From Gammaproteobacteria bacterium (GTDB taxonomy: Bacteria > Pseudomonadota > Gammaproteobacteria > GCA-001735895): 64,000 nt of DNA. The translations under genes and the position numbers were made by a program. Location of the stretch: assembly GCA_024638385.1 (NCBI GenBank), contig JAHEKJ010000009.1, positions 1 to 64,000 on the forward strand. Reading direction: 5' to 3'. Below the pieces are notes generated by a model that worked only from the letters and a program-made list of their open reading frames with translations, made no database searches and had not been told where the DNA came from. Positions 5,450-57,300 of this stretch are shown here, one piece after another; position 1 is the stretch's first letter; the number at the start of each line of letters is the position of its first letter.

Positions 5450-6643
5450 ATGCCGGTCTCGACAGCACTTCCCGAACCGACGCGCGGCAAGGTCGTCGTC
5501 TGGGGGTTGCTGGGTGCCTATCCGTTCGGCGGGATGACCTGGCAAGTGTTGCATTACGTCGCGGCCTTCCGGCAGCTCGGTTTCGATGTCTGGTACGTCG
5601 AGGAAACCCGGGCCAACTCGTTGAGCGCGGATGATTTTTCGCCGACCCAGGAGCATGACCGCAACCTTGCCCACATCCGGCAATGGATGGGGTGGCTCGG
5701 CCTCGAGGACCGCTGGGTTTACCGTCCGCCATCGAGCCCCGATAGCTGCCTCGGCGCGCTTGACGAAGCGGGGCTCGTCGGGCTCTACGCCGAGGCCGAC
5801 GCGGTATTCAACATTTGCGGCGCCCAGGAGCTCAGGCCGCATCATGTCGACATTCCGTGCCTGGTCTACGTCGAAACCGACCCGGTCCAGAAGCAGGTGC
5901 ACCTGGCCAATGGCAAGCAACACTGGATCGACATGTTCAAGGCCTACGATTATCTGTTTACCTACGCAGAAAATATCAATCAGCCGGATTGCGCGATCCC
6001 GCGAACCGATTTCATCTGGCTGCCGACCCGTCCGCCGGTAATCTTGCCCTGGTGGGAAGCTAACCCGCCCGCGGCCGACGCGAAGATCACCTCGGTTGCG
6101 ACCTGGAAGCACAAGGGCAAGGATATCCACTGGAACGGGCAGGTCTGGCGCTGGAGCAAACATCACGGGTTTCTCGAGTACATCGATATTCCGCGTCGCT
6201 CGAGCCTGCCGATCGAGCTGGCGGTGGGCGGCATCCGGCGCGAGGAAAGGCAATACCTGCGCGACAACCACTGGTTGCTGAAAGACCCGACCGGGCTCGC
6301 GGATCCGGATGCGTATCGGGACTACATCGTCGCGTCGCTGGCCGAGTTTACCGTGGCCAAGGAGCAATACGTCAAACCCGTCAGCGGGTGGTTCAGCGAT
6401 CGCAGCGTCTGTTACCTCGCGGCGGCGCGCCCCGTCATCACGATGGAGACCGGTTTCTCGAAGTACATTCCGTCGGGAGAGGGGTTGTTCGGATTCGGCA
6501 CGAAACAAGAAGTCTGGTCGGCGATCGACGCGATCGGCCGCGATTATCCGAAGCAATCGCGGCGCGCGCGGGAAATCGCGCACGAGTATTTCGATGCGAT
6601 CAAGGTCGTTGGCAAGATGACGCGGGACATGGGGCTGGCATGA
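5450..6643 (+). CDS. Putative GT-B-type glycosyltransferase
   Basis: N-term VVVWGLLGAYPFGGMTWQVLHYVAAFRQLGFDVWYVEE; C-term ARPVITMETGFSKYIPSGEGLFGF...EVWSAIDAI resembles a sugar-nucleotide binding half. Confidence 0.6.
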   Translation: MPVSTALPEPTRGKVVVWGLLGAYPFGGMTWQVLHYVAAFRQLGFDVWYVEETRANSLSADDFSPTQEHDRNLAHIRQWMGWLGLEDRWVYRPPSSPDSCLGALDEAGLVGLYAEADAVFNICGAQELRPHHVDIPCLVYVETDPVQKQVHLANGKQHWIDMFKAYDYLFTYAENINQPDCAIPRTDFIWLPTRPPVILPWWEANPPAADAKITSVATWKHKGKDIHWNGQVWRWSKHHGFLEYIDIPRRSSLPIELAVGGIRREERQYLRDNHWLLKDPTGLADPDAYRDYIVASLAEFTVAKEQYVKPVSGWFSDRSVCYLAAARPVITMETGFSKYIPSGEGLFGFGTKQEVWSAIDAIGRDYPKQSRRAREIAHEYFDAIKVVGKMTRDMGLA

Positions 6644-6650
6644 CGACCGG

Positions 6651-8747
6651 ATGCCCATGCTAGCCGCGGCTCGGTGTTCGGGGCGTTTGCGCCCGGCCCG
6701 GAGTCATCGGCACCGCGCAATCCGGATTGCGCTGTTGCTATTGTCGCTGCTGCCGGTTGCCTCGGCATTCGCGCAATCGCCGCAACCCGGCCCTCTGCGC
6801 GTCATCCAGGCGGCCACGCCGGGCAATCCGCCGATCATCGATGGCACCATCGATCCGCTGGAATGGAAGAATGCCGCGGTCGCCAGTGATTTCTGGCTGT
6901 CCGCCGAGCAGAAAGCGCCGGCGGCGCAGACCGAGGTGCTGGTGCTTGCGGACGAGGGATACCTTTATTTCGCGTTTCGCTGCTTCGATGCCAACCCGGA
7001 GCAAATCGAACGTTCCCGGTTTCGCCGTGACAAGGGGCTGGGTTTCGATGACCAGGTCGTCGTCGAAATCGATCCGTTTCACAACCATCGGGAAATATCC
7101 AAGTTTTCGGTCAACGCGCTCGGCACGCAAAATTATTCGATCGCCGGCGGCAGCCCGAGCAAGATCGAATGGAAAGGCGACTGGCAAGCCGCGGCCCGGG
7201 TCACGCAATGGGGTTGGACGGCCGAGATAGCGATCCCGTTCGAAATCCTGAAATACCGGCAAGAGCAGGGCGAGTTCGGCATCAATTTTCTTCGCTATCA
7301 TCACAAGATGCGCGAGTGGAGCGCCTGGGCGGACACCACCCCGCAAGCGAGGCTCGAGCAGATGGGGCATTTGCAGCTGGATTTGCCCGACACCGACAGC
7401 AAGCGCAACCCGCTGACCTTCATGCCGTTCGTGTTCGCGGCGCGCAACACTTTCGACAAGGAAGGCGAGTTTCAGGATCAATTGACCACCGCGGGCGTGG
7501 ACATTCGCTACGAGCCCAACCGCAACAGCACCGCGCTGGTATCGATCAATCCCGATTTCAGTTCCCTCGAGTCGCAGATCACGGATATCGATTTCAGCGA
7601 CAACGAGAAGCGCACCGACGACATACGCCCTTTTTTCGAGGAAGGGCGAGCATTCATCACCCCGGATTCGGACGATGAGCTGTATTTCTACTCCAACCGC
7701 GTGCCGGATTTCGACCTGGGCGGCAAGTACTTCACCCGCCAGCGAGCCTCGCAGTTCGGCATATTGCTGACCGATGACCCGTTCGCGCGCAAGGACCTGG
7801 CGGCGAGATACCGGTTCGAGATCGACGATACCCATCAGTTCAGTTCCATGCTGGTCGCGACCGACGGCGACGAACTCGACAACGAACTGGTCATGCTCCG
7901 CTTGAAGGGCAAGCAGGAATCGGGCGTCAATTACCTTCTTGAATCGGGCGCCACGGCGACCGACGACGACGCAATCGGCGACGGCAGCAGCTACCTCGGT
8001 GCGCTCGGCTGGAGCGGCGACTACTGGTGGGTCGATGGCCGGGTGGACCGGTTCGATGCCGAGTTTTTCCCGGCCAACGGTCTGCAGGACGAGGATACGA
8101 TCGGCACCGAAGCCGCGATCGTTTCGAGCGGGTATTATCGAAGTTATTCCGATCGAACCATAAGCGAAGTCGAGTTCAGCCTCAGTTACGAGGCGCGGGA
8201 TACGCTGGCCGGCGATACGCAGCGCCGCGTTTATTACATCGGCGGCAGCATCGAGACCGCGCGCCAGATCAGGCTGGGGCTGTTTTACAACCTGGGCGAC
8301 TACCGGCCGGTTGCGGGCACCGGCCGCGGCGAGTACGCGGACGAGCTGAGAGAGGACGATTACTGGACTTACTCGATGGACTTCAATACCCGCAGCAACT
8401 GGCTGGGCTACGGTTTTTCGGTATCCGATGGATTTCTCGGCGGCGACGATTACCGCTATGTTACGGGCTATGCCTGGGTCAAGCCGACGCAGTCGACCTT
8501 GCTCAATGTTTCCGCCGAGCAGCTCGATAACTTCGGTGAAACCGAACAAATCGTGATCAGCGGTAGCTGGGATTATTCCCGCAATAGCAGCCTGCTCTTC
8601 CGCTTCGTCAAGTTCGAGGAATTCGAATTCAACCGTCTCGCCTACCGCAAGTCCGTGAGCGACGGCATGGATGTTTTCCTGGTCTACAACGACGATTCCG
8701 GGGCCGAGACCAACTACTCGATGAAACTGTTGTGGACATTCAACTGA
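6651..8747 (+). CDS. CBM9-like/DUF5916-type outer-membrane protein
   Basis: Signal peptide-like N-term, IDGTIDPLEWKNA...VLADEGYLYFAFRCFD (CBM9-like), long C-terminal beta-rich region. Confidence 0.7.
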   Translation: MPMLAAARCSGRLRPARSHRHRAIRIALLLLSLLPVASAFAQSPQPGPLRVIQAATPGNPPIIDGTIDPLEWKNAAVASDFWLSAEQKAPAAQTEVLVLADEGYLYFAFRCFDANPEQIERSRFRRDKGLGFDDQVVVEIDPFHNHREISKFSVNALGTQNYSIAGGSPSKIEWKGDWQAAARVTQWGWTAEIAIPFEILKYRQEQGEFGINFLRYHHKMREWSAWADTTPQARLEQMGHLQLDLPDTDSKRNPLTFMPFVFAARNTFDKEGEFQDQLTTAGVDIRYEPNRNSTALVSINPDFSSLESQITDIDFSDNEKRTDDIRPFFEEGRAFITPDSDDELYFYSNRVPDFDLGGKYFTRQRASQFGILLTDDPFARKDLAARYRFEIDDTHQFSSMLVATDGDELDNELVMLRLKGKQESGVNYLLESGATATDDDAIGDGSSYLGALGWSGDYWWVDGRVDRFDAEFFPANGLQDEDTIGTEAAIVSSGYYRSYSDRTISEVEFSLSYEARDTLAGDTQRRVYYIGGSIETARQIRLGLFYNLGDYRPVAGTGRGEYADELREDDYWTYSMDFNTRSNWLGYGFSVSDGFLGGDDYRYVTGYAWVKPTQSTLLNVSAEQLDNFGETEQIVISGSWDYSRNSSLLFRFVKFEEFEFNRLAYRKSVSDGMDVFLVYNDDSGAETNYSMKLLWTFN

Positions 8748-10153
8748 GACGATATATGCGATATCTGTTGACCATTCTTTATCTTTCGGGTCTGCACGCG
8801 TTTAGTCCCGCGGTCGCCGACGAGAGCGGCACGCTGGATTACGAGTTTGCCATCAGCGTTGAAAAATCGGAGCTCAATGATCTGAGCCTGGGCGACGACC
8901 CGGATCTCGAGCGGCTCGAGGAAGAAGAAATCGAGTTCGAATTCGGTCTCGAATACTGGCCTAACGACCAGCTGCATTTCTTTTTCGTCGGCGCCTTGAA
9001 GGACGAAACCGAGACCGAGAAACCGCGCGGCGATCGCGACAGCCTGTCCGGGCTCGAGCGCAAGGAAATCGGGGTCGGTTACCTGTTCGGTGACGAAATC
9101 GCATCCGATCTGAACGTCGGCCGCATGGAATTCGTCAGCGCCAGCGAGTGGTGGCTCTGGTGGGACGAGGAACTCGACGGGATCAGGCTCGAATCCGCCT
9201 ACGGCAGCATCGATACGATGTTCGGAGTCACCGAGGAGCAGGCGCGCGAGTCGACCGGTCTCGATCGCATCGATCCCGAGATGGAGGACGTTCGCCGCGT
9301 CATGGCCAGCCTGGCATGGGAATTTGCCGACAATCACTCGCTGCTTTTCTACTACCTCGACCAGCAAGACGATTCGAAATCGTATTATTCCGGCTTCGGT
9401 TCGTTCGACGACTGCAACGACGGGCCGCCGGCGCCGGCCTGCGTGAGCGAGGACCGGGACAAGATCGACGACGAGGATGCCGACCTGACCTGGGCCGGGA
9501 TCGGTTATCTCGGCGAGTTCGAAATCGAAGCCGTCGGCGATTTCGAAATCGAACTGCATTATGCGGAAGTCGACGGCGACGAAGTGATCTACGAATTCGA
9601 CGATCCGGACCCGGTGACGAAGTTATCCGAGGTGACCGGTCGGCGGGAAAACAGCGTCGATGGCAGCGCGCGCGGTTATCTCGTCAGCTGGACTCCCGCC
9701 GCGCTCGAAGACTGGTCGTTTACCCTGAGCCGGGCCATCGGTGCGGGTGACGGCAATCCCGATGACGACCGCGACAAATCGTTCCGCCAGACCGGATTGC
9801 AGGGTGACATCGACGCGTTCGGCGAACTCTTTCAACCGGAGCTTTCGAACCTGGAGGTGCGGGCGATTGGCGTGGTATGGGAAGCTTACGATGGCGTCAA
9901 GATCGGTTTGTTGGGGTACGACTACAGGCAGGACAGGTTGGCGGACGAGATGCGCGACGCAGCTCTCGAGATCGACCCGATCGGGCTGGATCGCGATCTC
10001 GGCCGCGAAGTGGACTTGACCCTGACCGTCGAGGCTTACGGCGGCATGGAGTTTACGCTGATTGCAGCCGAGTTCGAGGCCGGCGAGGCCTACGGCGCTA
10101 ATGCGGGAGAAACCAGCCGTTTCGTCAAATTCGAGTTGAGCTACGAATTCTGA
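8732..10153 (+). CDS. Outer-membrane beta-barrel, alginate-export (AlgE)-like
   Basis: Signal sequence; alternating beta-strand composition ending in ...FVKFELSYEF (terminal F typical of OM barrels); immediately downstream of the DUF5916-like CDS. Confidence 0.55.
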   Translation: MDIQLRRYMRYLLTILYLSGLHAFSPAVADESGTLDYEFAISVEKSELNDLSLGDDPDLERLEEEEIEFEFGLEYWPNDQLHFFFVGALKDETETEKPRGDRDSLSGLERKEIGVGYLFGDEIASDLNVGRMEFVSASEWWLWWDEELDGIRLESAYGSIDTMFGVTEEQARESTGLDRIDPEMEDVRRVMASLAWEFADNHSLLFYYLDQQDDSKSYYSGFGSFDDCNDGPPAPACVSEDRDKIDDEDADLTWAGIGYLGEFEIEAVGDFEIELHYAEVDGDEVIYEFDDPDPVTKLSEVTGRRENSVDGSARGYLVSWTPAALEDWSFTLSRAIGAGDGNPDDDRDKSFRQTGLQGDIDAFGELFQPELSNLEVRAIGVVWEAYDGVKIGLLGYDYRQDRLADEMRDAALEIDPIGLDRDLGREVDLTLTVEAYGGMEFTLIAAEFEAGEAYGANAGETSRFVKFELSYEF

Positions 10154-10182
10154 CGATTGGCGGCGAACATCGCCGTCGGAAT

Positions 10183-10725
10183 TTAAACGATCTCGGTGTT
10201 CGACAGCTCTATGCAAAAACAGTCGTTCACCGTTTTGCCGTCGAGTGCCTCGCTATAGGCGTAGAAACACTGTCCACCGAACATGACTATTGCCACCGCA
10301 AGCCAGATTGCGAACGGCTTGTTTTTGCTGTCGTCGAAACGTTTGTAAAGTGTTTCCGCGAGTACCCACTCCCCCATGCACAGACCCGCAAAACCTTCGG
10401 ACACGATAGTCCAGGTAGAAAACGGGATAGAAAAAATTTGTGCCGCCTCTTCGCCGGTCGACAAATTCAAAATCACCCCGTTGATGTGAAATCGAAAGAG
10501 GTCGAGAATCTTGGCGTCTATGAATACGATGAAAACCAGTAACGAATAAAGTATCGCAGCCGGAACTACGATATTGCGTTTGTCGCTCACCAGTTTCTTC
10601 GTGATTGCGAGCGGTACATAAATTTGCGCGCACAGGTCGGTGATTTCGTGCTCGAGCGCGTCGGCGCGGGCCAGCGAATGGGGATATCGGGCGTTCGCGG
10701 AAAGGTCGGTGGTGGGGGTGCACAT
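10183..10725 (-). CDS. Hypothetical membrane protein
   Basis: Two to three hydrophobic segments (IVVPAAILYSLLVFIVFI, FAIWLAVAIVMFGGQCFYAY); AT-richer than neighbours. Confidence 0.5.
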   Translation of the reverse strand: MCTPTTDLSANARYPHSLARADALEHEITDLCAQIYVPLAITKKLVSDKRNIVVPAAILYSLLVFIVFIDAKILDLFRFHINGVILNLSTGEEAAQIFSIPFSTWTIVSEGFAGLCMGEWVLAETLYKRFDDSKNKPFAIWLAVAIVMFGGQCFYAYSEALDGKTVNDCFCIELSNTEIV

Positions 10726-10926
10726 GGTCAACTTCCGTGTCAATTATGGTTGCTCTATTTTTTACCAGAATTACGTAGGAAAATCAGGTAGTTAGTATGA
10801 CTACTTGGGGTGAATTCGAGTGCCCGAGCCTATCCGGGTTACAGGTCGCGTTTTCTACAGGATATATGGAGCTGACTACGTTTTTCCTGTTCGTGAAAAT
10901 GCACACGAATTGCTCGGGTTTCCTGG

Positions 10927-11190
10927 TGTCACCGGACATAGGAAGCTGACCCATATCGGACAAAATTACTCCTCCATCTTTAAATTAGATCGGGTCGTCT
11001 TCACTGGAAGCGGCCCATGCTGGCCGAGGTAGCATGGATGAATACAAAAATATTTTTACGGCGCGGGATGAGCGTCCCGGGGATTGCCCGCGAGTTGGGG
11101 ATAGCGAGGAGGAATACGGTCCGCAGGTATCTGAGGGGCAGTGCGGCCATACGGTTTGTCCCGGATCGCGCGCGACCGGGCTGCGATCAG
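10927..11190 (+). mobile_element. IS21-family remnant: putative left end plus truncated istA N-terminus
   Basis: MNTKIFLRRGMSVPGIARELGIARRNTVRRYLRGSAAIRF resembles the IstA N-terminal HTH; coding similarity ends near 11190; upstream TGTCACCGGACATAG...CGGACAAAA resembles IS21-type repeated terminal boxes. Confidence 0.45.
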
Positions 11191-12255: not shown

Positions 12256-12370
12256 AACAGTCTCCTGGCCGGCGGTGCGGCCCTGCGGCGCGCAGATTAA
12301 AGCAGAACCCAAGAATATCTCAATCCGATCGATATTGAAATTTTACGATTCCGGGTCTCTAAGTCACTAT

Positions 12371-12640
12371 CGTGCACAGACCGTTTTGCGCAGCAAAACG
12401 CCCTGTCAGGTTGCAGTCGACTCGAGGCCGCGGTCGTGCAAGATCGTGCACAGACCGTTTTGCGCAGCAAAACGCCCTGTCCGGTTGCAGTCGACTCGAG
12501 GCCGCGGTCGTGCAAGATCGTGCACAGACCGTTTTGCGCAGCAAAACGCTCTGCCCGGTTGCAGTCCACTCGAGGCCGCGTTCGTTCAAGATCGGGGACA
12601 GTCCGTTTTGCTTAGCAAAACGCCCTGTCCCCCTCGAAGC
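12371..12640. repeat. 74-bp tandem repeat array: three full units and a partial fourth, each carrying CGTTTTGC-(3 nt)-GCAAAACG
   Basis: Units start at 12371, 12445, 12519, 12593 (constant 74-bp period); 8-bp stem with GCA or TTA loop in every unit. Confidence 0.95.
12594..12632. repeat. GGGGACAG-capped palindrome A
   Basis: GGGGACAG-TC-CGTTTTGC-TTA-GCAAAACG-CC-CTGTCCCC. Confidence 0.9.
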
Positions 12641-13523: not shown

Positions 13524-14459
13524 TCAGCAGGGGTGGGGCCGGGTGCGCGCGAAGCGCGCCCGATCGAGGCAATGGATGTTGTGCGCCAGCTCGAGTCCGA
13601 TCGCCTCGAAACGCACGCCCGAGCCCGGCGTCAACTGCGCCAGGCGCGCGGTGTCGGCGGGAATCACGGCGCCGATCTTGGGGTAGCCGCCGATCGTCTG
13701 GCGATCGTTGAGCAGCACGATCGGCTGGCCGTCGGCCGGGATCTGGATCGCGCCGTGACAGATGCCTTCGGAAAGCATGCCCTCGAGGTTCGAATGCACG
13801 CTTTCGCCCTCGAGGCGGAAGCCCATGCGGTCGCAGCGCTCGGTGATCCGGTACTCGGTGTTGTAGAAGCGCCACGTGTGGACGTGATCGAAGGCGTCCC
13901 GCTGATAGCCGGGGACGACGCGCAGCAGCGCCTCCTTGCCGTAGGTCGGTCGTTCGGCGTCGTCGAGTCGCTGATGCCGCTCGCGCGGCGCCGAGTCGCA
14001 GGGCAGGGCATCGCCGGCGCGCAGCTTGTCGCCGGCCAGGCCGCCGATTTTCTCCCGCACGACGGTGGCCGTGCTGCCGAACTCGGGCGCGATCGCGAAG
14101 CCGCCGGCGACCGCGAGGTAGCAGCGCGTACCGGCGGTTGCGAAGCCGATCTCGAGCCGCTCGCCGGCATCGATGTTATAGGTTCGCCACTGCTCGATCG
14201 CCTTGCCGTCGAGCCGGCACGGCGCGTTCGCACCGGTGATCGCGAACGCGGTCGCGACCTCGGCCTCGAGTTCGAGGCCGCCGAAGCCGACTTCGAGGGC
14301 GGTCGCGCCGGCCGGGTTGTCGAGCAGCCGGTTGGCCCAGTCGAAAGCGGCAAAGTCGAGCGGTCCGCCGGTCGTGAGCCCGAGTCCGTGCGCGCCGTAA
14401 CGGCCGCGATCCTGCGGCAGGCTCAACAGCCCCGGCTGGCGGACCTTGAAGCCGCTCAC
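13524..14459 (-). CDS. pxpC: 5-oxoprolinase subunit C (biotin-dependent carboxyltransferase-like)
   Basis: PGLLSLPQDRGRYGAHGLGLTTGGPLDFAAFDWANRLLDNP; partner PxpB and PxpA adjacent. Confidence 0.92.
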   Translation of the reverse strand: MSGFKVRQPGLLSLPQDRGRYGAHGLGLTTGGPLDFAAFDWANRLLDNPAGATALEVGFGGLELEAEVATAFAITGANAPCRLDGKAIEQWRTYNIDAGERLEIGFATAGTRCYLAVAGGFAIAPEFGSTATVVREKIGGLAGDKLRAGDALPCDSAPRERHQRLDDAERPTYGKEALLRVVPGYQRDAFDHVHTWRFYNTEYRITERCDRMGFRLEGESVHSNLEGMLSEGICHGAIQIPADGQPIVLLNDRQTIGGYPKIGAVIPADTARLAQLTPGSGVRFEAIGLELAHNIHCLDRARFARTRPHPC

Positions 14460-15133
14460 AAATCGCCCCCGAGGTCGAGATAGCGTTGCCGTTCGACCGC
14501 CTCGAATCGCACGCGGTCGCCGACCTTGACCGGCATGCTCGGGTCGCGCTGCGGATCGAACATGCGCGTCGGGCAGCGACCGATCAGGTTCCAGCCGCCC
14601 GGCGATTCGGCCGGGTAAACGGCAGTCTGGCGATCGGCGATCGCGACCGCGCCGCGCGGCACTTTCTGCCGCGGGGTTTTAAGGCGCGGCGCGGCGATGC
14701 GCTCGTCGACCTCGCCGAGGTAGGCGAATCCCGGCGCGAAGCCGATCGCGTAGACGCGGTACTCCTGGCTTTGATGGATATCGATGACCTCGCGGGTGGT
14801 CAGGTTGGCGCGCGCGGCCAGCGTTTCGAGGTCGGGCCCGACGTCGCTGCCATAGTAGACCGGCAGGGTCACGAGCTCGCCCTCGGCCGCGGCGCCGGCG
14901 TCGAGGTCTGCGAGCGCCGCGCGCAGCCGGCGCCTGACCGCGAAGTGGTCGTCGCCGTCGATGTCGAAGATGACCAGCAGCGACGCGTAGGACGGCACCA
15001 GGTCGACGAGGGTGTCGGACAGGTTCGCGTCGATGCGCGCGACCGCGGCCTGGATTTGCGCCGACACCTCGGCGCTGGTTTGCTCGCCGAAGTAGACGAT
15101 GAACGCGTTCTGCCCGGCGATTTCGATGCGCAT
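14456..15133 (-). CDS. pxpB: 5-oxoprolinase subunit B (KipI-like)
   Basis: IGFAPGFAYLGEVDERIAAPRL...VPRGAVAIADRQTAVYPAESPGGWNLIGRCP. Confidence 0.93.
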   Translation of the reverse strand: MRIEIAGQNAFIVYFGEQTSAEVSAQIQAAVARIDANLSDTLVDLVPSYASLLVIFDIDGDDHFAVRRRLRAALADLDAGAAAEGELVTLPVYYGSDVGPDLETLAARANLTTREVIDIHQSQEYRVYAIGFAPGFAYLGEVDERIAAPRLKTPRQKVPRGAVAIADRQTAVYPAESPGGWNLIGRCPTRMFDPQRDPSMPVKVGDRVRFEAVERQRYLDLGGDL

Positions 15134-15140
15134 ACGCGGA

Positions 15141-15872
15141 TCAGGCGTGGATGATGGCGCGGATATCGCGAATGGCGGCAATGCCTTCCTCGTTATCGCC
15201 GTGGACACACAGCGTGTCCGGATGCAACTCGATACGGTGGCCGCTGACCGTGGTTACCGTGCCCTTGTGGCATATCTGTTCGACCTGGCCGAGCATCTTG
15301 TCGCGCGGATGCACCGCGCCGGGCTTCGACCGGGCCAGCAGCTTGCCGTCGTCGTCGTAGCAGCGGTCGGCGAAAGCCTCGAACCACAGCTCGATGCCGT
15401 ACTCGGCGGCCTCGCGGCGATGCTGCTCGGCCTCCGGCGTCGCCTGCAGCATCAGGCGCACCGGCTTGTGGAAATCGGCAATGGCCCGCAGGATCGGCCG
15501 CCGCACGTGCTCGTTCTTCATCATGTCGTTGTACAGCGCACCATGCGGTTTGACGTAGGCGAGTTCGAGCCCCTGGATCTTGGCCATGCCCTCGAGCGCG
15601 GCAACCTGGTAATGGATCAGGGCCTTGATCTCGGCCTGCGAGCATTGCATCGAGCGGCGGCCGAAACCGACCAGGTCGGGGTAGGCGGGATGGGCGCCGA
15701 CCATGACCCCGTTGTCCCTGGCCAGCTTCAGGGTTTGTTCGATCACCAGCGGGTCGCCGCCGTGATAACCGCAGGCAATATTGGCCTGGTCGATGTACGG
15801 CATGACGTCGGCGTCGCGGCCCATTTCCCAGGAGCCGTAGCTTTCGCCGAGATCGCAATTGAGCATCAACAT
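15141..15872 (-). CDS. pxpA: 5-oxoprolinase subunit A (LamB/YcsF family)
   Basis: MLNCDLGESYGSWEMGRDADVMPYIDQANIACGYHGGDPLVIEQTLKLARDNGVMVGAHPAYPD. Confidence 0.95.
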   Translation of the reverse strand: MLMLNCDLGESYGSWEMGRDADVMPYIDQANIACGYHGGDPLVIEQTLKLARDNGVMVGAHPAYPDLVGFGRRSMQCSQAEIKALIHYQVAALEGMAKIQGLELAYVKPHGALYNDMMKNEHVRRPILRAIADFHKPVRLMLQATPEAEQHRREAAEYGIELWFEAFADRCYDDDGKLLARSKPGAVHPRDKMLGQVEQICHKGTVTTVSGHRIELHPDTLCVHGDNEEGIAAIRDIRAIIHA

Positions 15873-15885
15873 GATTTACCTCCGC

Positions 15886-16674
15886 TTAGAGCACTGCGAG
15901 ATGACTGTTGGGCAGGTCGGTCACGAGCATGCAGCCGGGCGAATGGGTGATGCAAAACGGCGGCCGCGCCTGCTCGACCGCGACCTGCGGCGTGACGCCG
16001 CAGGCCCAGAATACCGGCACCTCGTCGGCGCGAATCGTCACCGCGTCGCCGAATTCGGGTTTCTTGATGTCGCGGATGCCGATCTTTTTCGGGTCGCCGA
16101 AATGCACCGGCGCGCCGTGCACCGCCGGGAAGCGGCTGCAGATCTGGATCGCGCGGATCGCGTCGCCCGGGATCATCGGCCGCATGCTGACGACCATCTT
16201 GCTGCTGAAACGGCCGGCGGTTTCGCAGTCGATGTCGGTGCGGTACATCGGCACGTTGACGCCCTCGGTGACGTTGCGGACCTCGAGGCCGTCGTCGATC
16301 AGCGCTTCCTCGAACGAGAACGAGCAGCCGAGCACGAAGGCGACGAGGTCGTCGCGCCAGAACTCGCTGACGTCGGGCACTTCACCCACGAGTTCGCCGT
16401 GCTCGAACACCCGGTAGCTCGGCACGTCGCTGCGCAGGTCGAGGTCCAGCCCGAGCCGCGGGATCGTGAAGTCGCCGGGCGACGACGACATGCCGATCAG
16501 CGGGCAGGGTTTCGGATTGAAGGTGCAGAATTGCAGGAATTCGCCGGCGTAGTCGGCCGGCAGGATGCACAGGTTGCCCTGCACGAAACCGCGCGCATAG
16601 CCCGACGTGTTGGTGGTGAATTCGCCGGCGCGAATCAGCTGGCGCAGTTCGAGCGGTGTGATGTGTTGATCCAT
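15886..16674 (-). CDS. DUF1445 (YcsI-type) putative hydro-lyase
   Basis: [67 protein letters not shown]. Confidence 0.88.
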
Positions 16675-16703: not shown

Positions 16704-18335
16704 TTACAATGACTTGGCGCGTTCGCGCAACACGTTTTTCTGGATCTTGCCGGTCGCGGTTTTGGGCAATTCGCCGAAGACGACTTTTTTCGGTCGCTTG
16801 AAGCGCGCCATGTTGGCGGCGCAGAAATCGATCAGTTCCTGCTCGTCCGCATCCTGCCCGGTCTTGAGTTCGACGAACGCGCAGGGCACTTCGCCCCACT
16901 TGTCGTCGGGATAGGCGACCACCGCGGCCTCGCCGACCGCCGGATGCCTGTAGAGCACGCCCTCGACTTCGACCGACGAAATGTTTTCGCCGCCCGAGAT
17001 GATCACGTCCTTGGCGCGGTCGCGCACCTGGATGTAGCCGTCGGGATGAACCACGGCGATGTCGCCGCTCTGGAACCGGCCGTCCCGGAACGCCTTGGCG
17101 GTCGCCTCCGCATCCTTCAAATAACCCTTCATGACCGTGTTGCCGCGAATCACGATTTCGCCCATGGTCTCGGCGTCCCACGGCACCGGTTCGCCGCTCT
17201 CGGGATCGATGACGTCGACCGCCTCGGTCATCGCGAAGCGCACGCCCTGGCGCGCCTTGAGCTCGGCCTGCCGCTCGATCGACTGCGCCGCCCAGTCGGC
17301 CTGCGGCGCCGAGTGCAGGATATGGCCGTAGGTCTCGGTCAGGCCGTAGACGTGCATGACTTCGAAGTTGAAGTCGGCCATGCGCTCGAGCACCTTGGCC
17401 GGCGGCGGCGCGCCGGCGGTCATTGCGTAGACCGGGCGGTCGAAGCGTTTCTGATCCTCTTTCGGTGCGTTGGCGAGCATGTTGAGCACCACCGGCGCGC
17501 CGCCGAAATGGGTCACGTCGTGGCGTTCGATCAGTTCGAAAAACAGCTTCGGCTGGAACGCGCGCAGGCAGACGATCGTGCCGGCCAGCGCGGTCATGGT
17601 CCAGGCATGACCCCAGCCGTTGCAGTGAAACATCGGCACCGTGTAGAGGTACGTCGGATGCGGCGGTAGCGCCCACGACAATACCGTGCCCATCGTCATC
17701 AGGTAAGAGCCGCGATGGTGGTAGACGACACCCTTCGGCAAACCGGTCGTGCCCGATGTGTAATTGAGCGCGAGCGCCTGCCATTCGTCGTCGGGCAGGC
17801 GCCACGAATAGGTATCGTCGCCGCGATCGACGAGGTCCTCGTAAAAGGTGAATTCGTGATCTGTCGGCAGGTCGGGCTTCTCGACCGCGTCGGCGTCGTC
17901 GATGATGATGATTTCCGGGCGCAGCTCGCATTGCCCGAGCGCCGCTTCGAGCACCGGCCATAGCTGGCGGTCGCAGATGAACGCGCGCGACTCGCCGTGA
18001 TCGATGATGTAGGCGACGGTGGCCGCGTCGAGGCGCGTGTTGATCGTGTTCAGCACCGCGCCGGCGAGCGGAATCGAGAAATGGCTCTCGAACATCTCCG
18101 GCGTATTGAACGCGAACACCGACACCGTATCGTTGCGACCGATGCCACGCGCGGCGAGGCTCGACGCGATGCGCGCGCAGCGGTTGCGCGTCTGCGCCCA
18201 GGTATAACGGCGCGCGTTGTAGATCAGCGATTCGCGCTCGGGATAGATGTCGGCGGTGCGTTCGAGAAACGACAGCGGCGACAACGGCACGAAATTGGCC
18301 GCGTTGGCGTCGAGTCGATCGTATTCGGCGGTCAT
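16704..18335 (-). CDS. Acyl-CoA synthetase (AMP-binding), DmdB/fatty-acyl-CoA ligase-like
   Basis: [49 protein letters not shown]. Confidence 0.93.
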
Positions 18336-18347
18336 GGCATCACCTCG

Positions 18348-20654
18348 TCAATTGCGTACCGGCGCGCCGGCGTCGAGCATGCCGTCGATGCGGGCGCGCG
18401 TCGCGTCGGTCTGCACCAGCGTAAGAAACGCGCGGCGCTCGGCGTCGAACAGATCCTGCTCGCTCCAGCTCGTGCCCGGTTCGATGTCGCCGCCGGTGAC
18501 GATACACGCGATTTCGCTGCCGACGCACACGTCGTGGGCGAAGAACTGGCCGTCGGCGTGCGATTTTTCGAGCCATTTGAGCATGTCCTCGAACAGCGGT
18601 CTACCGGGCATCGCAAGCGGCGGCCGGGCGAAGCGCGTACGGCTCGCCGGATCGTCGATCGCGGCCAGCGCCTCGCCGAGAATGCGGTCGCGGTTGATCA
18701 CGTAGCGATCGTGCGGTCGCAGCATGGCCTGCGCGCGCGCGATGACCGGCGAACTCGCGGTCTTGCCGTAGCCGAGATTCATGAAAGCCTTGCGGCACGC
18801 CTCGCCGATGTCGTCGCCGCAGCCGAGTTTTTCGATCCAGCGGTAGAGCGTCTCCTTGCAGCCGCCGCCGCCCGGCACCACGCCGACCAGCGATTCGACG
18901 AGCCCCATGACCGAATTGGCGTGGCAGATGACCTGTTGCGCGTGCAGCACGACCTCGAAGCCGCCGCCGATCGACAGCCCGACCGGCGCCGCGACCACCG
19001 GGAATTCCGCGGCGGCCATGCGGTGGACGGTCTGCTGGAAGTCGGCGAGAAAGCGGTCGAGCCCGTCGAGATCGTCGCGGCGATAGAAATCGCGCACCAC
19101 GCCGAGGTTGACGCCGCACGAAAAATGCTGCGCGTCGTTGTGCACGACCAGGCCGCGCATGCCCTTTGCGGCAACCGCGTCGAGCGCGTCGGCGAGGATG
19201 CCCATCGAGTCGCCGTCGAGCGCGTTGGCCTTGCTGTGGAACTCGACCAGCGCGACGCCGTCGAGGTCGTACCAGCTCGCGACCGCGCAGCTGTTCTGCG
19301 CCGTCAGCGTGCGCCGTTTTTCGCTAAAGCGAATGACCCCGGCGGGGCGCTCGATCGGTCGCCACTCGCCGCCGTGGCGGCGTGCCTCGAGCTTGTCGCC
19401 GGAGACGCGGTAGAAACTCGAACCGGCCGCCTGGGCAAGAAACTCCGGTACCTCGGCGCCCTCGTCTTCGAGCCGCGCGACGAACGCGTCGACGCCGATT
19501 TCGTCGAGCAGCTCGAACGGCCCCTGGATCCAGTTGTAGCCGAGCTTCATCGCGTCGTCGATGCCGAGCGGGCCGTCGTCGACCTCGGGGATCAGCGAAG
19601 CGGCATAGGCCAGCGTGCGCGACAGCACGCGCCAGGCGTATTCGCCGTAGCGGCCGTCGTCTTCCAGCAACAGCGACACGCCGTCCTGCTCGGCGCGCTC
19701 GGCGAGCGGCAACGCGAGCCGCGGCGGCGCGCTCTCGTATTCGCCGGAAGCGAGGTTCAGCACCTCGCGGCCGCCGTCGCCGACGCGGTAAAAGCCTTGC
19801 CCCTGTTTGTTGCCGGTCTGACCGTTTTCGATCATGCGCGTCATCAGCGGGATCTTCGCCGCTTCGCGGTGGAAGGCGTCGGCGGGCGGCAGAATCTCGA
19901 CCAGGCTTTGCACGACGTCGGACATCAGGTCGATGCCGATCAGGTCGTAGAGGCCGAACACGCCGGTCTTCGGAATGCCCATCGGCCGGCCGAAGATCGC
20001 GTCGGCCTCGAGCGGCGTGAGATCCATGTCGAAAGCCGCGTGCAGCGCGCACTGGATCGCGTAGACGCCGACGCGGTTGCCGAGGAAGCCGGGCGTGTCG
20101 CGGCACGGCACGACGCCCTTGCCGAGCTGCTGTTCGCAGAAATCGGCGAGCAGCTCGATGATTGCCGGATCGGTGTCGTCGCCGCGAACCAGCTCGAGCA
20201 GGCGCATGAAGCGCACCGGGTTGAAGAAGTGCGTGATCGCGAAGCGCCGACGAAACGATTCCGGCATGTCCTCGACCAGCAGGCGGATCGGGATCGTCGA
20301 CGTGTTCGACGAGACGATCGCGTCGGCGTGGCAGGTGTCGTCGAGGCGCCGGTACAGGTCCTGCTTGACGTCGAGACGCTCGACCACGGCCTCGGCAATC
20401 CAGTCGCAGTCGCCGAGCACCGAGAAATCGTCGCGCGTGTTGCCGAGACGGATGTATTGCTCGGCCTCCTTGCTGATCAGCCCCGGCGCGTTCGGGTCGC
20501 GCAGGCGCTCGAGCCCGCGTTCGGCGAGCGCATTCGGATTGTCGTCGGTGGGCAGGTCGAGCAGCCAGACGTCGATGCCGGCATTCGCCACCTGCCCGGC
20601 GATACCTGCACCCATGGTTCCGGCCCCGATAACCGCGACCTTCTCGATCTTCAT
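18348..20654 (-). CDS. 3-hydroxyacyl-CoA dehydrogenase/enoyl-CoA hydratase fusion
   Basis: N-term VAVIGAGTMGAGIAGQVANAGIDVWLLDLP; HFFNPVRFMRLLELVRG; C-term crotonase-like VAAPVGLSIGGGFEVVLH...VGVVPGGGGCKE. Confidence 0.92.
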   Translation of the reverse strand: MKIEKVAVIGAGTMGAGIAGQVANAGIDVWLLDLPTDDNPNALAERGLERLRDPNAPGLISKEAEQYIRLGNTRDDFSVLGDCDWIAEAVVERLDVKQDLYRRLDDTCHADAIVSSNTSTIPIRLLVEDMPESFRRRFAITHFFNPVRFMRLLELVRGDDTDPAIIELLADFCEQQLGKGVVPCRDTPGFLGNRVGVYAIQCALHAAFDMDLTPLEADAIFGRPMGIPKTGVFGLYDLIGIDLMSDVVQSLVEILPPADAFHREAAKIPLMTRMIENGQTGNKQGQGFYRVGDGGREVLNLASGEYESAPPRLALPLAERAEQDGVSLLLEDDGRYGEYAWRVLSRTLAYAASLIPEVDDGPLGIDDAMKLGYNWIQGPFELLDEIGVDAFVARLEDEGAEVPEFLAQAAGSSFYRVSGDKLEARRHGGEWRPIERPAGVIRFSEKRRTLTAQNSCAVASWYDLDGVALVEFHSKANALDGDSMGILADALDAVAAKGMRGLVVHNDAQHFSCGVNLGVVRDFYRRDDLDGLDRFLADFQQTVHRMAAAEFPVVAAPVGLSIGGGFEVVLHAQQVICHANSVMGLVESLVGVVPGGGGCKETLYRWIEKLGCGDDIGEACRKAFMNLGYGKTASSPVIARAQAMLRPHDRYVINRDRILGEALAAIDDPASRTRFARPPLAMPGRPLFEDMLKWLEKSHADGQFFAHDVCVGSEIACIVTGGDIEPGTSWSEQDLFDAERRAFLTLVQTDATRARIDGMLDAGAPVRN

Positions 20655-20677
20655 GTCACCAACCTCGATTTTTGCCT

Positions 20678-20776
20678 GTCATTGCGAGGAGCGCGCGACC
20701 GAAGGTCGTGCGCGACGAAGCAATCTCCCGAAACTTGCCCGATCCCGAAAGATTGCTTCGCTGCGCTCGCAATGAC
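20678..20776. repeat. REP/MITE-like GTCATTGCGAGG element R1
   Basis: GTCATTGCGAG...GACGAAGCAATCT...AGATTGCTTCGCTGCGCTCGCAATGAC inverted termini, intergenic. Confidence 0.9.
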
Positions 20777-20788
20777 GAGAATTTCTGC

Positions 20789-20936
20789 GTCATTGCGAGG
20801 AGGGGCGGCCGGAGGCCGACGCGACGAAGCAATCTTGTCGTAGTTAGCCGATCCTCCGGATTGCGTCGTCGCGGAGCCTGCCCCGGCCCCGGCTCGGAGG
20901 CCGGGGTGAACTGCAGCCGGGGCTCCTCGCAATGAC
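20789..20936. repeat. REP/MITE-like GTCATTGCGAGG element R2 with internal GC-rich module (20871-20925)
   Basis: GTCATTGCGAGGAGG...CTCCTCGCAATGAC; internal 55-nt module also present at 39215-39269. Confidence 0.88.
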
Positions 20937-20949
20937 GGCTTTGTTTTCG

Positions 20950-21747
20950 TCATGCCGCGTTTTCGAGCGCGCCGATCAGCGCGCGCAATTCGTGCAGCGT
21001 CTGCTTCGGCGCCTCGACCGGCAGCATGTGACCGTAACGTTCGATGACCGTGACCTTCGCGCGCAGCGCGTCGGCGAGCTGCAGGCCGGCCTTCATCGGC
21101 GTCAACCGGTCCTTGCGCGCGAGAATCAGTTGCGCCGGCAGGTCGAGCGCCTGCGCCACCGCGAGGCCGTTGTTGTAATTGCTGCACGCGAGCAGGTCTT
21201 CGTACATCGGGTTCGAGCCCATGATCTGGCGGCCTATCGCGATCGGCTGCATGCCCGGCACCGCGCTGATTCCGTACTGCGCATCGGGGCCGAAGCCCCA
21301 CAGCAGCAGCATTTCGGCGGCCTTGCCCGCGTCGTTTTTGGCTGCGTCGATCAGTGCCGGGTTGACCGGGATCTCGCCGGCGGTGCCGACGCCGGTGATC
21401 GACCTGAGCGCCGCAGGCGCCTGCCGCGCGAGCTCGAGGATGTCGAGAAAACCCTGCGAATGGCCGACCGCGTGGACCGGCGGCGCGCCGACCGCGGCGA
21501 GAAATTCGCCGAGCCACGCGCCCATGTCCTCGATCGTCTCGAGCGGCTTGCCGGCCGACAGGCTGTGGCCGGGCAGGTCGGGCGCGAGCACCGCGTAGCC
21601 GTTGTAGGCGAACCAGCGCGTCTGCAGCGCCCAGCTGCGATGATCGAGTCCGCTGCCGTGCACGAACAGCACGCTCGGCAGCGATGCGTCGTAGTCCTTG
21701 CCGCCGGTCGCGGCGTAAGTTTTCTCGCCCCTGACTTCGCAGTACAT
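20950..21747 (-). CDS. Alpha/beta hydrolase
   Basis: SVLFVHGSGLDHRSWALQTRWFAYNGYAVLAPDLPGHSLS; GHSQG nucleophile elbow; ATG at 21747 overlapping the MetY-like stop. Confidence 0.88.
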   Translation of the reverse strand: MYCEVRGEKTYAATGGKDYDASLPSVLFVHGSGLDHRSWALQTRWFAYNGYAVLAPDLPGHSLSAGKPLETIEDMGAWLGEFLAAVGAPPVHAVGHSQGFLDILELARQAPAALRSITGVGTAGEIPVNPALIDAAKNDAGKAAEMLLLWGFGPDAQYGISAVPGMQPIAIGRQIMGSNPMYEDLLACSNYNNGLAVAQALDLPAQLILARKDRLTPMKAGLQLADALRAKVTVIERYGHMLPVEAPKQTLHELRALIGALENAA

Positions 21748-23051
21748 CAGGACCCCGCGACGCGTCTGGCGGCGCGAAAGCCGCGTTCGAAATCCGCCTT
21801 GATGTCGCCGATGTCCTCGATGCCGACCGACACCCGCACCAGGTCCTCGCTGATGCCGGCGGCCTCCATGTCCTCGCGGGTCAGCCGCGAATGGGTCGTC
21901 GTCGCCGGGTGCAGCACCAGCGTACGCGCGTCGCCGACGTTGGCGAGGTTCGACGCGAGTTCGAGCGAATCGATGAAGGCCGCGCCGCCGGCGCGGCCGC
22001 CGACGACGCCGAAGCACAGCATCGAGCCGGCGCCGTCGGGAAACAGCGTCGCCGCGAGCGCGTGGCTCGGGTTGCTTTCCATGTCGGGGTAATTGGTCCA
22101 GGTCACGGCGTCCTGCCGCTGCAGCCAGTCGAGCAACGCCTTCGCGTTGGCGACGTGCTGCTTCATGCGCAGGTTCAGCGTCTCTATACCCTGCAGGATC
22201 AAAAACGCGTTGTGCGGGCTCATCGCCGCGCCGACGTCGCGCATCGATTCGGCGCGCATCTTCATCGCCAGCGCCGACGGTCCGAACTCTTCCCAGAAGC
22301 GGATGCCGTGGAACGGCGCGTAGGGCTCGGTCAGTTCGGGGAAGCGGCCGCTCGCGCTCCAGTCGAACTGGCCGCCGTCGACGACGACGCCGCCGATCGC
22401 GACGCCGTGGCCGCCCATCCATTTGGTGGTCGAATGGACGACGACGTCGGCGCCGTGCTCGAACGGCCGGCACAGCGTCGGAGTCGCGAAGGTCGCGTCG
22501 ACGACCACGGGAATTCCGGCGTCGTGCGCGATCTCGGCAATGCCCGGGATATTGGCGATCTCGAGTCCCGGGTTGCCGATCGACTCGCAGAACACGAGCT
22601 TGGTATTGGGCCTGATCGCGGCGCGCAGCGCCTTTTCGTCGTTGATCGGAACGAAGTCGCAGTCGATGCCGAGGCGCTTGATCGTGTGCTTGAGCAGGGT
22701 CGCGGTCGAGCCGTAAATCTGGGTCGCCGAGATCAAATGATCGCCGGCCGAGCACAGCGTGATGAACAGCGTAAACAGCGCGCTCATGCCCGACGCGGTG
22801 CAGATCGCGCCGCTGCCGCCCTCGAGCGCGGCGATGCGCTGCTCGAGCACGGCGACGGTCGGGTTGGTGATGCGGCTGTAGATATGTCCACCCTGCTCGA
22901 CGTTGAACAGCGACGAGCCGGCGCTGACGCTTTCGAACACGTAAGATGTCGTCTGGTAGACCGGCACCGCGCGCGCGCCGTGATCGCTCTCCGGCACGTA
23001 GCCGGTGTGCAGCGCGACGGTATCGGGTTTGAGATAGGTGGATCGGCTCAT
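21747..23051 (-). CDS. O-acetylhomoserine/cystathionine sulfhydrylase family PLP enzyme (MetY-like)
   Basis: DTVALHTGY...VPVYQTTSYVF; VVVHSTTKWMGGHG PLP lysine motif; SVGIEDIGDIKADFERG. Confidence 0.9.
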   Translation of the reverse strand: MSRSTYLKPDTVALHTGYVPESDHGARAVPVYQTTSYVFESVSAGSSLFNVEQGGHIYSRITNPTVAVLEQRIAALEGGSGAICTASGMSALFTLFITLCSAGDHLISATQIYGSTATLLKHTIKRLGIDCDFVPINDEKALRAAIRPNTKLVFCESIGNPGLEIANIPGIAEIAHDAGIPVVVDATFATPTLCRPFEHGADVVVHSTTKWMGGHGVAIGGVVVDGGQFDWSASGRFPELTEPYAPFHGIRFWEEFGPSALAMKMRAESMRDVGAAMSPHNAFLILQGIETLNLRMKQHVANAKALLDWLQRQDAVTWTNYPDMESNPSHALAATLFPDGAGSMLCFGVVGGRAGGAAFIDSLELASNLANVGDARTLVLHPATTTHSRLTREDMEAAGISEDLVRVSVGIEDIGDIKADFERGFRAARRVAGS

Positions 23052-24175
23052 GCGCTTACCTCCGCTCGGCTGATCGCGTCGAAATCGAACGGCAGCGGGA
23101 CGATACGCGCACGCGCGCCGGCGATCTCGACGCTGTCGTGGGCGGCGACGAAATCGCTCTTCATCATTGCCATCGCCAGGTGCAGGCGGTGGCGCGGCGA
23201 CCAGACCTGCGAGCGGATGTCGCCGACGACTCGTCCGCCGGCCTCGAATTCGAAGCGCTCGAAGGTCATCGGCGTCTCGAACACCAGGCCCGTCAAAATG
23301 TGTTCGTGGGTATCCTTGAGCGGGCGCAGCGCCTCGAGGCTCAGCGATTCGATGTCGGCGTCGAGATCGATGAAGGTGTCGAGGCCGCACTCGAACGGGT
23401 TGTGCGCCTGGGTCATATCGTTGCCGTACGACAGCAGCCCGCTCTCGATGCGCTCGATCAGGTTGGGGCCACCGGCGCGGACGTTCAGGTCCTGTCCCTG
23501 CGCAAAAAGTTCGTCCCACAGCGGCTCTGCGAGATCGGCGTCGTTCAGGTAAATCTCGAAACCGTCCTGCTTGCTGTAACCCGAGCGCATGACCATCATT
23601 GCGCGGCCGCGAAACTCGAGCATTTTCGAGCGGAAGAAGCGGATCGACGGCACCGCGTCGCCGAACACGCGGGTCACGAGGGTCTCGGCCTTCGGCCCCT
23701 GAACCGCGAGCGGCCAGATATCGGCCTCGCCGACCTCGACGTCGAGACCGTAACCGAGGGCGAGGCCCTGGGCGAAGAAGCGTACGTCGCTGTCGGCGAT
23801 CGAGATCCACCAGTGATCGTCGGCCAGCTTGATCACGACCGGGTCGTTGAGCAGCGCGCCGGTCTCGTCGCACAGCGGCGCATAGAGGCCCTGGCCAATC
23901 GCGGTGCGGCGAATATCGCGCGGCGTCATGAGCTGGACCAGGCGCTTCGCGTCGGGCCCCCTGACTTCGATCTGGCGTTCGCAGGCGACGTCCCAGACCT
24001 GCACGTGCTCGCACAGGTGCCAGTAATCGGCTTCGTTGCTGTCGAAGAAGGTCGGCAGCAGCATGTGGTTGTAGACGGTGTAGCCGCGCACGCCGGCGGC
24101 CTCGACCCGGCGGGTGAACGGCGTCGCGCGCGTCCGCCGGGAAATACTCAGGATCTTGTCTTTCAAACCAGTCAT
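23048..24175 (-). CDS. dmdA: GcvT-fold methyltransferase resembling DMSP demethylase DmdA
   Basis: YTVYNHMLLPTFF, HLCEHVQVWDVACERQIEV, WWISIADSDVRFFAQGLA, PNLIERIESGLLSYGNDMTQAHNPFECGLDTFIDLD match recalled DmdA motifs rather than canonical GcvT. Confidence 0.7.
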   Translation of the reverse strand: MTGLKDKILSISRRTRATPFTRRVEAAGVRGYTVYNHMLLPTFFDSNEADYWHLCEHVQVWDVACERQIEVRGPDAKRLVQLMTPRDIRRTAIGQGLYAPLCDETGALLNDPVVIKLADDHWWISIADSDVRFFAQGLALGYGLDVEVGEADIWPLAVQGPKAETLVTRVFGDAVPSIRFFRSKMLEFRGRAMMVMRSGYSKQDGFEIYLNDADLAEPLWDELFAQGQDLNVRAGGPNLIERIESGLLSYGNDMTQAHNPFECGLDTFIDLDADIESLSLEALRPLKDTHEHILTGLVFETPMTFERFEFEAGGRVVGDIRSQVWSPRHRLHLAMAMMKSDFVAAHDSVEIAGARARIVPLPFDFDAISRAEVSA

Positions 24176-39056: not shown

Positions 39057-39191
39057 GAATGGCACTTACTTTAGCCTGTCATTTTCATCATAGCGCCGCG
39101 TCATTGCGAGGAGGCGCCAGCCGACGAAGCAATCTCCCCGGCTCTGACCAGTCCCGGGAGATTGCTTCGCTGCTTCGCGGCTCGCAATGAC
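39057..39191. repeat. Composite REP/MITE-like element R3 including 5' flank conserved at 57100
   Basis: Core GTCATTGCGAG...CTCGCAATGAC (39100-39191); flank 39057-39124 matches 57100-57167. Confidence 0.85.
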
Positions 39192-39214
39192 GGCAAGCGT
39201 CGGGAGATCCCTTT

Positions 39215-39316
39215 GCGGAGCCTGCCGCGGCCCCGGCTCGGGGGCCGGGGTAAACTTCAGCCGGGGCTCGGGATGCCTGCGGCGAATTGCTTCGCTGCTT
39301 CGCAGCTCGCAATAAC
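39215..39316. repeat. Partial REP-like element with GC-rich module
   Basis: 39215-39269 matches 20871-20925 with about 4 mismatches in 55 nt; followed by GAATTGCTTCGCTGCTTCGCAGCTCGCAATAAC right arm. Confidence 0.8.
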
Positions 39317-39352
39317 GCCGACTCCCGTATTCGACCACAGCGGGATATGAAC

Positions 39353-39442
39353 GTCATTGCGAGGAGCGATAGCGACGAAGCAACCTCCTGATTCTTGCCC
39401 GATCGCGAGAGATCGCTTCGCTGCTTCGCAGCTCGCAATGAC
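39353..39442. repeat. REP/MITE-like element R4
   Basis: Matches 57211-57300 with 2 mismatches in 90 nt by eye. Confidence 0.92.
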
Positions 39443-57099: not shown

Positions 57100-57300
57100 G
57101 AATGGCACTTTCTTGAGCCTGTCATATCCATCAGAGTGCCGCGTCGTTGCGAGGAGGCGCCAGCCGATAACAAGGCGTCATTGCGAGGAGGCGCCAGCCG
57201 ATAAAAAGGCGTCATTGCGAGGAGCGATAGCGACGAAGCAACCTCCTGATTCTTGCCCGATCGCGAGAGATTGCTTCGCTGCTTCGCAGTTCGCAATGAC
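57100..57300. repeat. Composite REP/MITE-like element R5 with three left ends in tandem at 34-bp spacing
   Basis: Left ends at 57143, 57177, 57211 (GTCGTTGCGAGG/GTCATTGCGAGG); complete core 57211-57300. Confidence 0.92.

Follow-up and report, generated by a model that had tools for sequence, protein, structure and literature searches.

A probable DMSP demethylation operon with an embedded metY gene in marine Gammaproteobacteria

For two decades it has been debated whether marine bacteria bring the sulfur of the algal compound dimethylsulfoniopropionate (DMSP) into methionine by capturing methanethiol directly, or by oxidising it and rebuilding methionine. A cluster of five genes in a 64,000 nt stretch of a Gammaproteobacteria bacterium genome (GCA_024638385.1, contig JAHEKJ010000009.1, nt 1 – 64000; the whole stretch is called the window below) bears on this question, as it places a metY-like gene directly after a dmdA-like gene. 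Does it encode both the demethylation of DMSP and the capture of the methanethiol that would follow? Judging from sequence comparisons, we consider it probable (about 0.7) that these genes form an operon of marine Gammaproteobacteria for DMSP demethylation, which also encodes direct methanethiol capture. Gene order and its conservation, family membership, intact catalytic residues and the presence of unlinked partner genes were observed directly, and from these we infer the substrates of all the enzymes as well as their co-transcription.

The dmdA-like gene and its companions

The five open reading frames (ORFs) named in an earlier note on this DNA were all recovered on the minus strand, and their families were assigned by NCBIfam, Pfam and PDB searches. 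The dmdA-like gene (nt 23048 – 24175) comes first and encodes a 375 aa protein of GCV_T fold belonging to the tetrahydrofolate-dependent DMSP demethylase family. It scores 477 bits against the NCBIfam DmdA model NF009133 (cut-off 410) and matches the solved DmdA of P. ubique (SAR11; 3tfh) with an E value of 3e-100 and 47% identity over 335 residues; the motifs quoted earlier as those of DmdA are genuine, the match to 3tfh lying far beyond chance. Identities are 50% to the DmdA of Phaeobacter inhibens and 54% to that of Marinovum algicola, whereas two GcvT-like genes from this genome reach only 29% and 26%. In trees, the protein falls inside the DmdA family (39 rows against the outgroup, node support 100/100) with SAR11 3TFH and P. 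inhibens DmdA, the GcvT-like paralogs lying far outside. A position outside DmdA, one of two results that the earlier note said would refute its reading, was not seen; the DmdA trees are without SAR92, the clade A–E references and R. pomeroyi SPO1913.

The P. inhibens enzyme is verified by mutation, as its deletion abolishes use of the DMSP methyl group under standard conditions (PMC12366255), and the qPCR primers of that study match exactly the plasmid dmdA compared here. A tryptophan, W171, has been claimed as a key DMSP-contact residue of DmdA (PMC7487153). This site is Tyr in the window and P. inhibens proteins and Trp in SAR11 and most of the gammaproteobacterial clade. The exchange was considered as an argument against DmdA and set aside: since the verified P. 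inhibens enzyme also has Tyr, Trp at this site does not define DmdA. DMSP is the presumptive substrate of the window enzyme.

Four lineages were seen in the DmdA tree, namely SAR11, Roseobacter, the gammaproteobacterial operon, and a paralog clade that includes another copy in the present genome. The verified lineages and the operon lineage are linked to one acyl-CoA ligase type (PRK08162); paralog-clade members that were examined adjoin an enzyme dependent on thiamine pyrophosphate (TPP), and no PRK08162-type ligase was seen there. This second DmdA-family lineage is found in the present genome, in SAR11 and in Acidiferrobacteraceae; its places are nt 3253 – 4344 of contig C177 in the present genome (G000; L001 and L162 among the fetched loci, which are numbered L), nt 5728 – 10131 of L056 and nt 5610 – 10134 of L054. 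The acetolactate-synthase-like TPP gene beside it forms a conserved module, near which lie a flavin mononucleotide (FMN) alpha-hydroxyacid oxidase-like gene (L054, L056) or, in the present genome, an isochorismatase. Tandem pairs of dmdA-family genes stand in front of metY in L032 (nt 7749 – 10086) and L039 (nt 7752 – 10095), and in L032 the first of the two carries Met at the Trp/Tyr position.

The last gene of the cluster (nt 16704 – 18335) encodes a 543 aa acyl-CoA ligase of the dmdA-linked PRK08162 type, a candidate methylmercaptopropionate (MMPA)-CoA ligase with the DmdB function. It reaches 820 bits with NF006020 (cut-off 677), and 329 bits with the NCBI DmdB model (3-(methylthio)propionyl-CoA ligase, PRK07008), below the cut-off of 822. 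Rejection on this ground was contemplated and dropped because the ligase beside SAR11 dmdA fails likewise (348 bits), so that failure of this model does not disqualify the window ligase. In P. ubique, the ligase adjacent to dmdA is reported to have MMPA-CoA ligase activity. Over its full length it is 58% identical to the SAR11 and 54% to the P. inhibens dmdA-linked ligase, and the window, SAR11 and Roseobacter dmdA-linked ligases form one subfamily, PRK08162; the tree node that joins them, leaving a paralog on contig C44 outside, has moderate support (92/77). Placement in an unrelated beta-oxidation clade, which the earlier note had named as a refutation, was not found. Ligase and dmdA are linked in SAR11, in Roseobacter and in several families of Gammaproteobacteria. 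The PRK08162 subfamily, which the present DmdB model misses, follows dmdA in all three groups. The C44 paralog is a second PRK08162 ligase of the genome (L173, nt 6753 – 11090), 56% identical to the window ligase, with a crotonase and an ordinary MetY in its neighbourhood.

Between dmdA and the ligase gene lie three further genes. The metY-like gene (nt 21747 – 23051) encodes a 434 aa O-acetylhomoserine sulfhydrylase-like protein that scores 576 bits with TIGR01326 (cut-off 495), its pyridoxal phosphate (PLP) lysine, K210, being invariant in 37 homologs. It overlaps by 1 nt the gene of a 265 aa alpha/beta hydrolase (abh; nt 20950 – 21747; PF12697/PF00561), and in most relatives this junction measures -1 or -4 nt, representing a conserved overlap. 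The two genes are either both present or both absent in loci of the gammaproteobacterial clade. The hydrolase triad S98-D214-H241 (numbered by alignment A1, which starts one residue before Met) is invariant in 17 homologs, and the AlphaFold model (mean per-residue confidence, pLDDT, 92.7) has an esterase/lactonase fold that many esterases and lactonases match about equally. A MetX-type acetyltransferase was also considered for this gene and rejected, as the MetX model gave no match there and the predicted fold is that of a generic serine esterase. After a gap of 295 nt (nt 20655 – 20949) follows a 768 aa fusion of 3-hydroxyacyl-CoA dehydrogenase (HCDH) and enoyl-CoA hydratase (ECH) of FadN type (nt 18348 – 20654; PF02737, PF00725, PF00378), with catalytic residues H142 and E154 (HCDH) and E567 and E587 (ECH) invariant in 36 homologs.

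The 4 nt overlap of dmdA and metY reported previously is real, the dmdA stop and the metY start sharing ATGA. The accompanying proposal, that translational coupling of the two would trap methanethiol at once, did not survive comparison: the distance ranges from -4 nt in the window, the only place with the overlap, through about 0 to >200 nt among relatives, and DmdA itself does not produce methanethiol. Coupling was therefore discarded as a conserved feature, holding for the window and not for its relatives. Promoter and terminator scans gave results at chance level. An S-adenosylmethionine (SAM) riboswitch like that of SAR11 metY was considered and rejected, as the window has no Rfam match. 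The gap upstream of the fusion gene, which the earlier note did not mention, carries dispersed palindromic (REP/MITE-like) repeats with the core GTCATTGCGAGGAGC, which recur in the window (nt 20678 – 20953, 39100 – 39367 and 57177 – 57225; 7 matches with ≤1 mismatch, against 0.01 expected).

Conservation and unlinked partners

Eighty related loci were fetched, of which 41 (L009 – L049) make up the gammaproteobacterial clade; four of these end right after dmdA, leaving 37 that are informative. In 26 of the 37, dmdA is followed in the same orientation by metY, the hydrolase gene and the HCDH/ECH gene, and in most of these the ligase gene comes next. Oceanospirillaceae loci (for example L028 and L032) have no ligase gene next to the others, and the block is inverted in L033. 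An acyl-CoA dehydrogenase (ACAD) gene precedes dmdA on the same strand in L017 and L027 (44 – 46% identity to the P. inhibens operon ACAD), with an aldehyde dehydrogenase gene between the two in L027. Of 274 genomes sampled evenly across the class, 12 had a DmdA above the cut-off and 10 a hydrolase of the operon type. The operon also occurs in a cultured relative, Aliamphritea spongicola JCM 16668 (L034), where each of the ORFs for MetY, HCDH/ECH and the ligase is broken up by what looks like sequencing indels or decay.

The earlier note saw no DmdC-like dehydrogenase near the locus, and none is present on the contig (C185). Elsewhere in the genome, where that note had advised looking for it, a DmdC candidate was found: an ACAD on contig C110, which shares 55% identity with the ACAD of L017 and 48% with that of the P. 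inhibens operon. Genes for a 4HBT thioesterase and a crotonase follow it on the same strand. MetX is encoded on C102 (418 bits, cut-off 331). Since the genome has a second, ordinary MetY on C44, the operon MetY is an extra copy. CysH is also present, and for this reason the organism is probably not dependent on DMSP sulfur.

Directly downstream of the ligase gene is a 5-oxoproline cluster (DUF1445 hydro-lyase, LamB/YcsF, PxpB/PxpC-like; nt 13524 – 16665, minus strand). It was considered as part of the system and rejected; DUF1445 and LamB/YcsF adjoin the ligase only in the closest relatives (L009 – L011, L022), and these genes are thus a separate module. Further along (nt 12369 – 12630) is a tandem array of 3.5 copies of a 74 nt unit.

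Proposed pathway and competing explanations

The known steps of DmdA, DmdB, DmdC and DmdD/AcuH yield methanethiol and acetaldehyde from DMSP (PMC5395565), and MetY is able to join methanethiol to O-acetylhomoserine (PMC5069961, PMC9769926). In the pathway proposed here, the DmdA-family enzyme would remove a methyl group from DMSP and the ligase would form MMPA-CoA, from which an ACAD encoded elsewhere (on C110 here, inside the cluster in some relatives) would produce methylthioacryloyl-CoA. A crotonase, for which the fusion's ECH domain and the C110 enzyme are the candidates, would hydrate this product with release of methanethiol, and MetY would combine the methanethiol with O-acetylhomoserine supplied by MetX to give methionine. 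The operon would then supply the first two steps, possibly the hydration, and the capture step, while the hydrolase and the HCDH domain may clear the C3-CoA product or a thioester.

Several observations weigh against this pathway, and they concern both its capture step and its substrate. The metY-abh pair occurs without an adjacent dmdA in four sampled places (L147, nt 6690 – 8801; L148, nt 6713 – 8819; L149, nt 6601 – 8763; L150, nt 8208 – 10308), beside an AraC-type regulator in L147 and L150. This MetY therefore need not serve methanethiol, and the pair is probably an older one that was later joined to dmdA. In Granulosicoccaceae the order is dmdA-HCDH/ECH-ligase, with metY and the hydrolase gene both absent. 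It is conceivable, though unlikely, that DMSP is demethylated and activated as proposed but that the operon MetY mainly turns sulfide into homocysteine, methionine being rebuilt with methyl-tetrahydrofolate, and that metY-abh was captured for general supply of sulfur amino acids. The retention of CysH would fit such a role, as would two results from R. pomeroyi, in which direct capture gives only about one third of methionine (PMC7157515) and metY expression drops with DMSP (PMC9769926). On the other side, an ordinary MetY is already available on C44, and metY has been kept in the dmdA operon across several families. An SBP56-type methanethiol oxidase was not found in the genome, a metagenome-assembled genome (MAG) that is 91% complete, and it is therefore not apparent how methanethiol would be turned into sulfide; in ten other operon-bearing genomes, the SBP56 search gave three distant family matches alone (about 155 bits, compared with 587 in a Roseobacter).

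As to the substrate, the clade that unites the window protein with verified DmdA and excludes the C177-type paralogs has a support of 60/21, and alternative orders of the four lineages are not rejected (AU test, p 0.415 and 0.328). The C177 copy is nearer to Roseobacter DmdA (59% to M. algicola, compared with 54% for the window copy), and the window copy could therefore act on another sulfonium compound. The known demethylation pathway has no step for an HCDH domain, and this is a spot where a new reaction could hide. The link between the HCDH/ECH protein and the DMSP pathway that was suggested earlier holds in that the gene travels with dmdA; its relation to DmdD does not extend beyond 24% identity over 139 residues, and it is a FadN-type fusion rather than a stand-alone crotonase. 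A DmdA-family enzyme whose substrate is not DMSP but another sulfonium compound or a betaine, such as the 3-hydroxylated gonyol, with the ligase, HCDH and ECH degrading a 3-hydroxyacyl chain, would explain why the operon holds an HCDH and usually lacks an ACAD: the HCDH residues are invariant, and only two of the gammaproteobacterial operon loci examined have the ACAD in-cluster. We nevertheless regard it as very unlikely, given that in SAR11 and Phaeobacter this ligase type accompanies verified dmdA, that L017 and L027 do carry an ACAD upstream of dmdA, and that the genome itself encodes a DmdC-like ACAD with a crotonase. We know of no gonyol degradation genes. Either an operon for such a 3-hydroxylated sulfonium compound, or a new route of methanethiol release by the fusion and the hydrolase, is when taken jointly quite unlikely; in the latter, the hemithioacetal that arises on hydration would be oxidised by HCDH, and the hydrolase would split the resulting methylthio ester into methanethiol and malonyl-CoA beside MetY. 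The ligase, HCDH/ECH and ACAD families also act in beta-oxidation, and DmdB and DmdC are promiscuous (PMC5395565), but a plain cluster for fatty-acid beta-oxidation, in which the supposed DmdA would be a misannotated aminomethyltransferase, is disfavoured as extremely improbable, because DmdA is far from GcvT both in identity and in the tree, the ligase falls among the dmdA-linked ones, and the cluster has metY within it.

Comparison with known dmdA loci

Every gene family of the operon is already known, and a search of open-access papers found no description of the combination dmdA-metY-abh-HCDH/ECH-ligase. Isotope work in Ruegeria favoured a rebuilding of methionine (PMC7157515). With metY built into the dmdA operon in several families of Gammaproteobacteria, in the window genome with no SBP56 found, and with SBP56 beside dmdA on plasmid pMaD9, lineages that keep methanethiol in biomass may be predicted, as opposed to those that release or oxidise it. 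As relatives share the operon arrangement, they offer organisms in which the question of marine DMSP sulfur is directly testable.

The P. inhibens DSM 17395 plasmid operon, ACAD-dmdD-ligase-dmdA (NC_018291), has ligase and dmdA adjacent (identities to the window of 50% for DmdA and 54% for the ligase). It differs in having DmdD and a DmdC-like ACAD, and in lacking the metY, hydrolase and HCDH/ECH fusion genes of the window. The Oceanospirillaceae locus L032 (ASP10-02a), presumably a member of the Ant4D3 clade, has the order dmdA-metY-abh-HCDH/ECH as in the window, the ligase not being beside it. Putative MMPA-assimilation genes co-localised with dmdA were noted in the Ant4D3 clade in 2019 (PMC6383258). 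In SAR11 (genomes G010 and G011) the locus is ACAD-ligase-dmdA, with the ligase 58% identical to that of the window and a dmdA of the structurally solved type; there is no metY beside dmdA, and the metY of P. ubique is separate, under a SAM-V riboswitch (PMC5069961). The SAR92 cluster dmdA-acuH-dmdB-dmdC, which was compared by description only, is gammaproteobacterial and has a ligase and a hydratase like the window, and its dmdA is verified by complementation; it has acuH in place of HCDH/ECH and dmdC inside, with no metY or hydrolase gene reported (PMC10746254). On pMaD9 of M. algicola (ligase-dmdA-alcohol dehydrogenase-SBP56) the ligase gene is directly upstream of dmdA, whose product is the one 54% identical to the window DmdA. 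This plasmid carries SBP56, of the methanethiol oxidase family, where the gammaproteobacterial operon has metY, and the two arrangements would thus represent oxidation on the one hand and direct capture on the other.

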